Origin: Gelidibacter salicanalis
GTDB taxonomy: Bacteria > Bacteroidota > Bacteroidia > Flavobacteriales > Flavobacteriaceae
Direction: 5' to 3'
Length of the DNA stretch: 64,000 nt
NCBI RefSeq assembly: GCF_007997285.1
Contig: NZ_VORX01000007.1
Coordinates: forward strand, 62,001-126,000
Shown: positions 39,693-61,384 of the stretch, in pieces
Position numbering within the stretch: position 1 is the stretch's first letter
Layout: each line of letters opens with the position of its first letter
Notes under the pieces: model-generated
What the model was told of the DNA's origin: nothing
Database searches by the model: none
The model's input: only the letters and a program-made list of their open reading frames with translations
Translations under genes and position numbers: made by a program

Positions 39693-39810
39693 AAAAAGTA
39701 GGAATTGAGTGCCTACGATTGACCGCAAAGCGATGCTACGCCAGCATCAAAAATTACAAATAATAACACGCAATACACATAAATTGCCTCTGTAAGTGAA
39801 ATTGAATACT

Positions 39811-41352
39811 ATGGAATCAAAAATAAAAGACCTTAACGAAAAACTAGCGCTCGCTTATCTTGGCGGTGGTCAAGATCGTATTGACAAACAACACGAAAAA
39901 AAGAAACTAACGGCGCGAGAACGTGTGCTCTATTTAATGGACGAAGGTTCTTTTGAAGAAATTGGTGCCTTAGTCACCCATCGGGCCAAGGATTTCGGAA
40001 TGGCCGATCAGCAATTCTACGGCGATGGTGTGGTTACGGGCTACGGCACGGTGCACGGCAAATTGGTATATGTCTTTGCTCAGGATTTTACCGTATTTGG
40101 AGGCTCTTTATCAGAAACCCACGCGGAGAAAATATGTAAGGTGATGGATTTGGCCGTGAAAGTTGGGGCTCCAATTATCGGACTTAATGATTCGGGCGGG
40201 GCACGGATTCAAGAAGGCGTGAGAAGTTTAGGCGGCTATGCGGATATTTTTTACCGCAATGTGCAAGCCTCTGGTGTGATTCCGCAAATTTCAGCCATCA
40301 TGGGGCCTTGCGCTGGTGGCGCCGTATACAGCCCTGCCATGACTGATTTTACAATTATGGTACAAGACACAAGCTATATGTTTGTAACGGGGCCTAACGT
40401 AGTAAAAACGGTAACCAATGAGAATGTGACTTCTGAAGAACTGGGTGGCGCCAGTACGCACTCCACAAAATCTGGTGTTGCCCATATTACTGCTTCCAAT
40501 GATATCGAATGTTTGGAGGATATTAAAAAGTTGATCAGTTATTTACCTCAAAACAATACAGAAACCACGCCCCTTTTACCTTTTGAATTAAAGGATGAAG
40601 TGAGAGATGTGCTCTCTGATATTATTCCAGACAACGCTAACAAGCCTTATGACATGCACAGCGTGATCAATGGGATTATTGACACCGATTCGTTTTACGA
40701 AATCCATAAAGATTATGCCGAAAATATTATTGTCGGATTTGCCAGATTAGGCGGCAGAAGTATTGGAATTGTGGCCAACCAACCGATGTATTTAGCAGGA
40801 GTGTTAGATGTGAATAGTTCCAAAAAAGCAGCGCGATTTGTACGTTTTTGTGATTGTTTCAACATTCCATTATTAGTTTTAGAAGATGTTCCGGGCTTCT
40901 TACCAGGAACTGATCAGGAATGGCGTGGGATTATCGTTCACGGCGCCAAGTTGCTTTATGCGTTTAGTGAAGCTACTGTTCCGAGAGTAACAGTAATTAC
41001 CAGAAAAGCGTACGGTGGCGCCTATGATGTTATGAATTCAAAACACATTGGTGCGGATATGAATTTTGCTTGGCCAAGTGCTGAGATTGCCGTGATGGGT
41101 GCTAAAGGAGCGGCTGAAATTATTTTTAAGAAAGAAATCAATAAGGCTGAAGATAAAGATGCCAAATTGAAGGAAAAAGAGGAGGAATACGCGCGACTTT
41201 TTGCCAATCCGTATAGTGCGGCAGAACGCGGTTTTATTGACGAAGTGATCCTACCTAAAGATACACGACGCAAATTGATTAGAGCTTTTGCCATGTTGAA
41301 AGACAAAAAGGTAGATGCACCAAAACGCAAGCACGGGAATATTCCGTTATAA
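39811..41352 (+). CDS. Acyl-CoA carboxylase carboxyltransferase (beta) subunit
   Basis: Transfers carboxyl from biotin to an acyl-CoA. It has 513 residues from ATG 39811 ([20 protein letters not shown]); a GTG 15 bases upstream is less likely. Two crotonase-like halves are seen: N-terminal with [21 protein letters not shown] near 125 and [16 protein letters not shown] near 165, C-terminal with [23 protein letters not shown] near 365 and [19 protein letters not shown] near 405. This is the PccB-type architecture. A MITE was inserted 13 bases after its stop codon. Confidence 0.93.
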
Positions 41353-41358
41353 TTGTTA

Positions 41359-41597
41359 TTTATAATCATTGTTGTCCGATCAAGAATCAAGACCGCTGCG
41401 CTGTTAGAATAAAGAATTAAGACTTGTTTGCAACTAACTGACAAACAACGATCATTTAAATTAAAATCGCACATTCCCTCTCGGTAGAAACAGCTTCTAA
41501 AATGCAAGGTCTCATTTCGGAAATCTTCTAATGTCCCTTGCTTAAAATGAGTTTGTTAATTTATTATTTATTTTTATCCGACACTAATGATTTATAA
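41359..41597. mobile_element. MITE-like non-autonomous element, copy 1 (225 bp plus 7-bp target duplications)
   Basis: The element runs from 41366 to 41590. Its ends are inverted: TCATTGTTGTCCGATCAA on the left and, on the reverse strand, TCATTAGTGTCGGATAAA on the right. It is flanked by TTTATAA at 41359-41365 and again at 41591-41597. It has no open frame that could be a transposase. A second copy of the same 225 bp, differing at only a few bases, is at 60818-61042. Confidence 0.85.
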
Positions 41598-41600
41598 TCA

Positions 41601-41638
41601 AAAAAATGCCTTCAATGAAAACTATTGAAGGCATTTTT
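41601..41638 (-). terminator. Terminator between the carboxylase and NYN genes
   Basis: AATGCCTTCAAT / ATTGAAGGCATT, a long perfect stem, with A and T tracts on both sides, so it can serve both convergent genes. Copy 1 of the MITE lies just upstream of it on the plus strand. Confidence 0.85.
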
Positions 41639-41662: not shown

Positions 41663-42457
41663 TTAGGTTTTAGAGATCAATTTTCTTTTATTTCGGGTTT
41701 GCTTTTTAGGTTTTATTTGTGCTTCTTTAATACGTACATAAATTAGCTTAAAATGCCCTTTGGAATCTTCTCTTCGGTCGATTTCAAATTCTTTTAGCGA
41801 CTTGATTAATGGGGTCAATTTTTGAAAGCCATAATTACGGGAATCAAAGTTAGGCTGTTTCTTTTGCATCAGTCCACCAACATCTCCCAAGAAAGCCCAG
41901 CCATCTTCATCCGCCACATCTTCAATGGTTGCGGCAATAAACTTTATTTCCTTTTGGGTGATTTTATCCACGTTGCTCTTCGCCGTTTTTGACTCTTCCG
42001 TAGACACCACTTCCTCGTCTGAACTCTGGTTTTTAAGAATTTCAATATAAATGAACTTGTCACAAGCCACGATAAATGGATTTGGTGTTTTCTTTTCGCC
42101 AATCCCGTAAACTTTCATACCTGCTTCACGTAAACGTGTTGCCAAACGTGTAAAGTCACTGTCGCTGGATACAATACAAAAGCCATCTACTTTAGCGGTA
42201 TATAAAATATCCATCGCATCAATAATCATGGCCGAATCTGTAGCATTTTTACCTACGGTATATCCATATTGCTGAATTGGCGTAATGGCATTTTCCAAGA
42301 GCATATTCTTCCATTTTGAAAGGTGCGGCTTGGTCCAATCTCCATAAATACGCTTAATTGTCGGGTTGCCGTATTTGGCAATTTCCTCCATCATCTCTTT
42401 TACATAGGCTGAAGGGATGTTATCCCCATCTATTAATACTGCAAGTTTTATATCCAT
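41663..42457 (-). CDS. NYN-domain protein with C-terminal OST-HTH/LOTUS domain
   Basis: 264 residues. The N-terminal NYN (PIN-like) nuclease domain shows LAVLIDGDNIPSAYV near 5-19, KNATDSAMIIDAMDILY near 89-105 and CIVSSDSDFTRLATRLREAG near 112-131, the Asp residues that chelate metal. A charged linker is followed by an OST-HTH/LOTUS RNA-binding domain (about 155-235, with FLGDVGGLMQKKQPNFDSRNYG). This LabA/DUF88 pattern suggests RNA cleavage or binding. It forms a single-gene unit. Confidence 0.88.
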   Translation of the reverse strand: MDIKLAVLIDGDNIPSAYVKEMMEEIAKYGNPTIKRIYGDWTKPHLSKWKNMLLENAITPIQQYGYTVGKNATDSAMIIDAMDILYTAKVDGFCIVSSDSDFTRLATRLREAGMKVYGIGEKKTPNPFIVACDKFIYIEILKNQSSDEEVVSTEESKTAKSNVDKITQKEIKFIAATIEDVADEDGWAFLGDVGGLMQKKQPNFDSRNYGFQKLTPLIKSLKEFEIDRREDSKGHFKLIYVRIKEAQIKPKKQTRNKRKLISKT

Positions 42458-59625: not shown

Positions 59626-60744
59626 ATGAAGTTTATCGTATCAAGTACCTATTTACTCAAACAATTGCAAGTGTTGGGAGGGGTCATCAACAACTCAAAC
59701 ACCTTACCTATCTTGGATAATTTCCTGTTTGAATTGAATGATTCAAAACTCACCGTTTCTGCAAGTGATTTAGAGACCACAATGTCTTCAATAATTGATG
59801 TTGAAAGTACAAGTGTTGGAAGCATCGCCTTGCCGGCACGTTTGTTATTGGACACTCTTAAAACGTTTCCAGAGCAACCACTAACCTTTGTGGTTGAAGA
59901 TAATAATACTGTTGAAATCAGCTCTAACCACGGTAAATATGCCTTGGCTTATGTAGATGGCAACGAATTTCCTAAAGCAGTCGCGTTAGAAGATCCTAGT
60001 ACTACTATGGTCATGGGTGATATTTTAGCGACAGCAATCAGTAAAACCATTTTTGCTGCAGGTAATGACGATTTACGTCCGGTGATGAGTGGCGTCTTTT
60101 TTCAATTCTCTACAGAAGGATTAACCTTTGTGGCAACAGATGCTCATAAATTGGTAAAATATACGCGTGAGGACGTTACCGCTAATCAGGTAGCCGAGTT
60201 CATCATGCCTAAAAAACCTTTAAATTTATTAAAGGGAATATTAGCAGGAAATGATGATGCGGTGACTATTGAATATAACGATTCCAATGCGAAATTCACG
60301 TTTGAAAACTCGGTATTGGTGTGTCGCCTTATTGACGGAAAATATCCTAACTACGAGGCGGTAATTCCTAAGGAGAATCCTAATAAATTGACCATTGACA
60401 GAAATCAATTTTTGAATTCTGTTAAGCGTGTGAGTATTTTCTCCAATAAAACCACACATCAGATCCGTTTAAAAATTGCGGGTGCTGAATTAAATATTTC
60501 TGCAGAAGATATTGATTACAGCAATAAGGCAGAAGAACGTCTCACTTGCGATTACCAAGGTGACGACATGCAAATTGGCTTCAATTCGCGCTTCTTAACA
60601 GAAATGTTGAACAATCTTGGTGCTAGTGAAGTACAATTAGAAATGAGTTTACCAAACCGCGCTGGAATTTTGACTCCTATTGATGGTTTAGATGAAGGTG
60701 AGCGCGTAACTATGCTAGTAATGCCAGTAATGTTAAATAATTAG
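59626..60744 (+). CDS. dnaN: DNA polymerase III beta subunit (sliding clamp)
   Basis: 372 residues with the three repeated clamp domains: KFIVSSTYLLKQLQVLGGVINNSNTLPILDNFLFEL at 2-37 (key LPIL), a middle MSGVFFQF...VATDAHKL near 155 (the strongly conserved TDxHRL-type motif), and a C-terminal MLNNLGASEVQLEMSLPNRAGILTPID near 330 (peptide-binding pocket residues ending in VMPVMLNN). Housekeeping; dnaA is not in this window. An intrinsic terminator follows. Confidence 0.96.
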   Translation: MKFIVSSTYLLKQLQVLGGVINNSNTLPILDNFLFELNDSKLTVSASDLETTMSSIIDVESTSVGSIALPARLLLDTLKTFPEQPLTFVVEDNNTVEISSNHGKYALAYVDGNEFPKAVALEDPSTTMVMGDILATAISKTIFAAGNDDLRPVMSGVFFQFSTEGLTFVATDAHKLVKYTREDVTANQVAEFIMPKKPLNLLKGILAGNDDAVTIEYNDSNAKFTFENSVLVCRLIDGKYPNYEAVIPKENPNKLTIDRNQFLNSVKRVSIFSNKTTHQIRLKIAGAELNISAEDIDYSNKAEERLTCDYQGDDMQIGFNSRFLTEMLNNLGASEVQLEMSLPNRAGILTPIDGLDEGERVTMLVMPVMLNN

Positions 60745-60796: not shown

Positions 60797-60810
60797 GCTT
60801 TATTTAATGA

Positions 60811-61049
60811 TTGTTAATCATTGTTGTCCGATAAAGAATCAAGACCGCTGCGCTGTTAGAATAAAGAATTAAGACTTGTTTGCAACTAACTGACAAACAA
60901 CGATCATTTAAATTAAAATCGCACATTCCCTCTCGGTAGAAACAGTTTCTAAAATGCAAGGTCTCATTTCGGAAATCTTCTAATCTCCCTTGCTTTAAAT
61001 GAGTTTGTTAATTTATTATTTATTTTTATCCGACACTAATGATTGTTAA
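60811..61049. mobile_element. MITE-like non-autonomous element, copy 2 (225 bp plus 7-bp target duplications)
   Basis: The element runs from 60818 to 61042, flanked by TTGTTAA at 60811-60817 and again at 61043-61049. It has the same ends and length as copy 1 and differs at only a few bases (about four in what I compared). The right target duplication contains the stop codon of the DUF4870 gene (61046-61048, minus strand). Confidence 0.85.
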
Positions 61050-61384
61050 TTAATAAAATTAAAAGATAAAGGGTATTTTGTTGGTTCGCCATTGCTCGCT
61101 TTAATGGCATTTAAAATAGGAAATACAATGGAAAAAAGTCCCAAAACTAGAAAGCCGATGAGTCCTATTCCACAAAATAAGATTAGCGGAACGCAAATAA
61201 TACAATAGATGATTAAGCTCAATTGAAAATTGATAATCTGCTTTCCGTGTGCGTCCATCTCGTAGACTTTTTCTTTTTGGGTGAGCCAAATAATTAAGGG
61301 CAGAATTAAACTTCCAAACCCAGCAACAAGGGTTACCAATTGACTTAAATGCGTAATAACGAGTAATTGTCGGTCTTCTCTCAT
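61046..61384 (-). CDS. DUF4870 membrane protein
   Basis: 112 residues with three to four membrane helices, fitting DUF4870: LVITHLSQLVTLVAGFGSLILPLIIWLTQKE near 8-38, EMDAHGKQIINFQLSLIIYCIICVPLILF near 42-70 and a closing helix, then a short tail NGEPTKYP. Function unknown. Its 3' end is bounded by a MITE that appears to have inserted exactly at its stop codon without changing it. Confidence 0.85.
   Translation of the reverse strand: MREDRQLLVITHLSQLVTLVAGFGSLILPLIIWLTQKEKVYEMDAHGKQIINFQLSLIIYCIICVPLILFCGIGLIGFLVLGLFSIVFPILNAIKASNGEPTKYPLSFNFIN

Follow-up and report, generated by a model that had tools for sequence, protein, structure and literature searches.

Two copies of a 223-bp repeat lie in the 64,000-nucleotide stretch of the Gelidibacter salicanalis genome analysed here (the window), and the repeat is very probably a non-autonomous IS4-type element (MITE) whose helper is an IS4-family transposase (DUF4372 + DDE_Tnp_1, IS4Sa-like). 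The preliminary description of the window had proposed transposition and not an ancestral duplication as the origin of the two copies. This proposal is borne out by the variety of insertion sites, by target duplications that exceed their control, by element-free sites in congeners and by a full insertion sequence (IS) in a congener.

Structure of the element and its target duplications

The mobile unit begins and ends with the outer bases CATT...AATG in both window copies, and the inverted ends noted in the preliminary description are seen in each of them (Table 1). That description gave the copies a length of 225 bp. Its coordinates hold, and the two 225-bp stretches show 4 differences in a full-length alignment, but the unit itself is 223 bp. 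The consensus ends are identical at 15 of their first 17 positions. The element had been described as lacking a transposase gene, and indeed no listed ORF long enough for a transposase lies within copy 1. A mechanical ORF on the minus strand (41022-41507, 161 aa) partly overlaps copy 1 and is antisense to the upstream gene. Copy 1 contains two half-modules and no tandem array of one short repeat.

Table 1. Features of the two window copies and their surroundings
Feature	Coordinates	Strand	Details
MITE copy 1	41367..41589	+	223 bp, inverted ends CATTGTTGTCCGAT / CATTAGTGTCGGAT
MITE copy 2	60819..61041	+	223 bp
Copy 1 left target duplication	41358..41366	.	9 bp, ATTTATAAT
Copy 1 right target duplication	41590..41598	.	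9 bp, ATTTATAAT
Copy 2 left target duplication	60810..60818	.	9 bp, ATTGTTAAT
Copy 2 right target duplication	61042..61050	.	9 bp, ATTGTTAAT; includes the stop codon of ORF 61046-61384 (minus strand)
Interior module, genus-wide intergenic repeat also found outside MITEs	41382..41426	+	AAGAATCAAGACCGCTGCGCT...AAGAATTAAGACTTG; approximate boundaries
Hairpin with T-run, terminator-like, adjoining copy 1	41602..41638	.	flagged by the scan on the minus strand

A 21-base interior pattern matched the window twice and had 0 matches in 100 shuffles. The end pattern gave 10 window matches at ≤3 mismatches versus 8.70 expected, which is chance level, and the window sites with 0 or 1 mismatch are the four MITE ends only. 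One right-end base within CATTAGTGTCGGAT is common to both window copies and absent from the other genomic sites listed at 0-1 mismatch, and this private base indicates that the two copies probably descend from a recent common source copy.

The target duplication is 9 bp and not 7 bp as first described; the shorter figure arose because the outermost duplicated base on each side had been assigned to the element. The duplications do differ between the two window copies, as that description had noted (Table 1). Among the 42 copies scored in the genome, the nine flank columns match in 37-42 copies, compared to 5-22 copies for the neighbouring columns. All nine bases are identical in 31 of the 42 copies and at least eight are identical in 39, leaving three copies with only 5-7 of 9 matching. 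A control in which flanks from different loci were mispaired (1712 pairs) gave 4 pairs that reached 9/9 and 23 that reached at least 8. Flanking bases shared by all copies had been named beforehand as an argument against mobility; what was found is 38 distinct left targets among the 42 copies. With an A+T content of 89%, these left targets roughly resemble ATTNNNAAT, and the consensus TTNNTAA suggested earlier fails as a general description of them.

Copy number and variation in the G. salicanalis genome

The source genome (G000) is a 3.78-Mb draft in 24 contigs with a listed completeness of 99.97%, and it was compared with eight congeners at the genus level (G001-G008). BLASTN of the copy 1 body against the source genome, the check proposed at the outset, gave 44 matches, and at least 42 full-length copies with both ends were present after all the matched places were fetched. 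The count is a minimum, with 40 of the 94 first-look candidates scored and three end pairs at element-like spacing (L077, L079 and L080, with flanks matching at 2/9, 8/9 and 7/9) left uncounted along with several single ends. The 42 copies correspond to 40 sites, with one site shared by a tandem trio of 244-bp copies (L034:1509-2258; G000:C15:463208-463957). The 9-bp target sequence follows each copy of the trio, which looks like an amplification of a unit composed of element plus target.

Copy length is 223 bp in 28 cases (counting L037, which is 222 bp), 244 bp in 6, 216 bp in 3 and different from these in the other 5. The median pairwise identity between the 42 copies is 96%; divergence from the consensus is at most 5.4% in 39 of them and 10.8-18.1% in three older copies. 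A 21-bp palindrome, CTGCC...GGCAGGCAGGC, occupies one spot in the interior module of 6 of the 42 copies (L031, L032, the three of L034, and L036). In L075 the same palindrome sits at the corresponding place next to a lone end. The window was also searched for the palindromes TCCCGATAGCTATCGGGA and CCTGCCTNNTCGGCAGGCAGG, with no match at ≤3 mismatches.

End sites at ≤1 mismatch number 92 in the source genome and 20 in G001, versus 0 and 3 for a control pattern; G004 and G006 have one such site each, as many as the control gives there. The 92 sites compared to one each in G004 and G006 place the expansion of the family after the split from these two congeners.

Element-free sites and diverged relatives in congeners

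No element end (≤3 mismatches) was present within 400 bp after the upstream gene in any of the eight congeners at either window site. This comparison with genus-level relatives takes the place of the empty-site check in sister strains that the preliminary description proposed, and its outcome favours mobility. The copy 2 junction was alignable on both sides in three of the eight congeners (G001, G004 and G006). The ORF upstream of copy 2, which ends at 60744 and which we take to be dnaN from its looks, is followed in these three genomes by a similar hairpin and then by the same bases, and a single ATTGTTTAAC-like site replaces the 232 bases that the window has in addition. Between the copy 2 target and the three congener sites there are one or two substitutions and a one-base insertion. 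G002, G003, G005, G007 and G008 were not alignable by eye at this junction.

The copy 1 junction was informative in two of the eight congeners (G004 and G006), in which the spacing from stop codon to hairpin equals that of the window minus the element and the target sequence is unrecognisable. G001, G002, G003, G005, G007 and G008 were not alignable by eye at this junction, and G001 has what appears by eye to be a copy of the interior module at the site. G004 and G006 are each the best match for one flanking gene.

Diverged relatives of the element were found in 12 of 39 genomes searched, and 9 of these 12 belong to the genus, the source genome included. The relatives were compared at 15 loci from G001-G008 plus two named species. 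Near-full-length relatives with ~70-80% identity are present in seven of the eight congeners, in two pieces in the case of G004, and the match in G002 is limited to the left 78 bp of the element. Four relatives (L042, L046, L052 and L063) have perfect 9-bp duplications of their own. Two MITE insertions, each with the same duplicated target in both genomes, are apparently common to G003 and G007 (L042/L052 and L043/L054) and look old and inherited within the genus. Two stretches in the genome collection contain the exact 27-base end pattern, and both are from Gelidibacter (salicanalis and pelagius).

An IS4-family insertion sequence as the probable helper

The preliminary description suggested a search for a full IS with the same ends, and a 1385-bp IS4-family element was found in the congener G001 (L086:402-1786). 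Its ends, CATTAATGTCCGATAAAAA and CATTGTTGTCCGATAAAAA, are both exact matches to CATTNNTGTCCG. The MITE consensus agrees with the two IS ends at 21/23 and 19/20 bases and has no convincing match to the IS interior, the middle of the element included. G001 contains five copies of a 400-aa IS4-type transposase ORF, each 100% identical to the query. The protein matches PF01609 (1.1e-21) and PF14294 (1.3e-17) and scores 205.4 bits against the NCBIfam IS4 model NF033592 (cut-off 115), and these matches place it in the IS4 family.

The published hallmarks of IS4 are a YREK motif, DDE spacers of 60-110 and 100-150 residues and a target duplication of about 10 bp (De Palmenaer et al. 2008, PMC2266710). 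The G001 transposase has the arrangement D-69-D-104-E, within both spacer ranges, and the Y(2)R(3)E(6)K motif, YKIRWQIEILFKQLK. The IS4Sa subgroup is described with ends that start with CA and have T at position 9, duplications of 8-10 bp and lengths of 1150-1750 bp; the G001 IS shares with it the CA------T end pattern, the size and the YREK and DDE motifs, and a duplication of 9 bp would also lie within the range given for the subgroup (PMC2266710). The helper would be IS4Sa-like, a subgroup placement judged by these table features only.

None of the G001 IS copies has a clean duplication pair. Three of them (L087-L089) are cut by contig ends. The other two (L084 and L086) have unlike flanks, and the left flank of one is the right flank of the other. 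The flanks of these two copies look exchanged, either by recombination between copies or by misassembly. The 9-bp duplication of the helper thus rests on more distant IS relatives, which at E ≤1e-50 were found at 16 loci in 11 of 397 Flavobacteriaceae genomes. A 9/9 duplication at ends of the helper type is present at 8 of the 16 IS loci, compared to 0/16 for two control patterns in the same DNA; only three of the eight (L107-L109) have ≤2 mismatches over both ends. Flank matches of 8/9 show no excess, with 3 pairs versus 5 and 0 in the controls.

An IS fossil of 115 bp with 88.7% DNA identity to the G001 IS is located at C8:3562-3676 in the G. salicanalis genome. Searches of this genome with PF01609, PF14294 and the G001 protein found no intact transposase of the G001 IS4 type. 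PF14294 (DUF4372) has matches in 4 of the 9 genus genomes and none in G. salicanalis, and the sole PF01609 match is an IS1182-type remnant close to one MITE copy. This fragment (C19:410996-411565; L069:1522-2154), a C-terminal remnant, was considered as the helper and set aside. It looks as if the MITE family spread in this lineage and its helper was lost afterwards; it is possible that a helper copy fell into a gap between the 24 contigs of the draft assembly.

The mechanism that we propose starts with an IS4-family transposase that would recognise the ~17-bp CATTNNTGTCCGATAAA ends of the element. The target, in A+T-rich and mostly intergenic DNA, would be cut with a 9-bp stagger, so that insertion generates the 9-bp duplication; cut-and-paste chemistry is predicted from what is published on the IS4 family. 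The 115-bp fossil would be the remainder of a close helper relative that once resided in the G. salicanalis genome. The family is probably immobile at present because no intact helper copy was found there.

Genomic placement of the copies

Copy 1 lies as far from the upstream stop codon at 41352 and from the hairpin as the preliminary description states, and the ORF that ends at this stop codon is presumably a carboxylase, as it was labelled there. The hairpin lies between the convergent ORFs 39796-41352 and 41663-42457. The positions of the stop codon and the hairpin suggest that the upstream transcript probably includes copy 1. Across the genome, 39 of the 42 copies are outside ORFs of ≥80 aa, as delimited by a crude ORF caller with a 40-base overlap tolerated. 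Fifteen of these are between convergent ORFs, 15 between tandem ORFs and 9 between divergent ORFs, with the tandem trio counted thrice. L003, L011 and L031 overlap ORFs that the same crude caller starts inside the element.

Alternative explanations

An old segmental duplication, or a fixed intergenic repeat that is not mobile, is an extremely improbable explanation for the two window copies. It could appeal to the interior module, which is found outside the element too and in each of the 9 genus genomes searched, and to the two insertions apparently common to G003 and G007, by which parts of the family are old and inherited, but the 38 distinct left targets among 42 copies, the 9-bp duplications and the element ends in 0/8 congeners at the window sites contradict it. 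Mobilisation by a transposase of another kind than the DUF4372 IS4 type, able to act on similar ends, is very unlikely. An intact IS4 helper was not found in the source genome, where the IS1182-type remnant is the sole PF01609 match, and this leaves room for such an enzyme; the ends, the 9-bp duplication and the IS4 fossil nevertheless all favour the IS4 type.

It is also unlikely that the element is kept for an interior that works for the host, as a transcript end, an RNA or a binding site, and that its mobility is secondary. Near-full-length relatives at ~70-80% identity in seven of the eight congeners (the left 78 bp only in G002) and the location of 39 of the 42 copies outside ORFs are what a host function would lead one to expect, but the intergenic placement is equally expected from selection against harmful insertions. 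The folding of copy 1 is ordinary, with z scores of -0.94 on the plus strand and -0.04 on the minus strand, and Rfam gave four matches with E ≤1, each below its gathering score; a structured-RNA role was rejected on these values. The single promoter-like match does not exceed the shuffle mean of 1.8.

Relationship to known elements

Read as an IS4-type MITE, the window element fits the bacterial MITEs in its size of 223 bp, its terminal inverted repeats, its many copies with duplicated targets and the ends that it shares with an IS, here one in a congener; the size range given for MITEs is 50-1000 bp (PMC4596501). It differs from the ISs of the IS4Sa subgroup in being 223 bp long and without a transposase, and the word MITE does not appear in the main text of the IS4 survey (PMC2266710). 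BrickBuilt of Porphyromonas gingivalis is an intergenic MITE said to have captured a short direct repeat (PMC4596501). Both elements are intergenic and from Bacteroidota, and an interior shared with a repeat recalls BrickBuilt, a likeness by description only. BrickBuilt differs in that its ends are reported to be nearest to those of ISPg1/ISPg9 and its interior is a 23-nt tandem array, a type of array that window copy 1 does not have (PMC4596501). The IS982-derived MITE of Cardinium resembles the window MITE in its lineage-specific spread in a Bacteroidota genome; the parental IS982 is reported to be intact in the Cardinium genome, whereas the helper of the window MITE is of another family and was found there only as a fossil in the source genome (PMC9769881).

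A literature search that covered titles and the starts of abstracts, with subscription papers and ISfinder outside its scope, found nothing on this element or on a MITE tied to a DUF4372 transposase. The kind of element is known, and the family is undescribed as far as these titles and abstract starts show. The MITE is ordinary in kind and the evidence for it is unusually complete. A sister species has the full helper IS, the element has reached 42 or more copies in one lineage, congeners lack it at both window sites and the helper has shrunk to a 115-bp fossil, which together give a near-complete history. Non-coding elements without genes are easily missed, and any copy may change a neighbouring gene's untranslated region.

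The interior module and its occurrence across the genus

An interior module of ~45 bp is common to the element and to a genus-wide intergenic repeat. A 25-base module pattern was searched in all 9 genus genomes at one mismatch and gave 6-18 matches per congener and 56 in the source genome; the reversed pattern gave 0 matches. The 56 matches divide into 34 inside MITE copies and 22 outside. One of the outside matches (C8:106474) borders a single MITE-like end, which means that not all 22 are free of the MITE family. The left 81 bp of locus L091 in Gelidibacter pelagius match the consensus; the ends are shared as well, the middle differs, and a perfect 9-bp duplication flanks the element. The structure of L091 suggests that the module and the transposon ends may be recombinable.

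A tentative reading of the interior is that the MITE is a vehicle in which an IS4 end pair captured the genus-wide module (AAGAATYAAGACCGCTGCGCTNTTAG...), with the transposase spreading, and possibly swapping, a repeat that is perhaps functional and that has the CTGCC...GGCAGGCAGGC palindromes at a fixed spot. The chimeric L091, whose left 81 bp match and whose middle differs, fits such modular exchange. If the MITE is such a vehicle, one transposase would spread a pre-existing intergenic repeat. The tie between the interior and the genus-wide repeat makes repeat spread in Bacteroidota testable.

A tandem array of ~7 units with a period of ~110 bp, formed by others of the 22 outside matches, is located at L154:506-1303 (G000:C8 ~147705-148502), and each unit of this array consists of a CGCTGCGCT module and ACGAATTTCACGAAT-like repeats. 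Similar module arrays occur outside the element in stretches of G001, G004 and G006.
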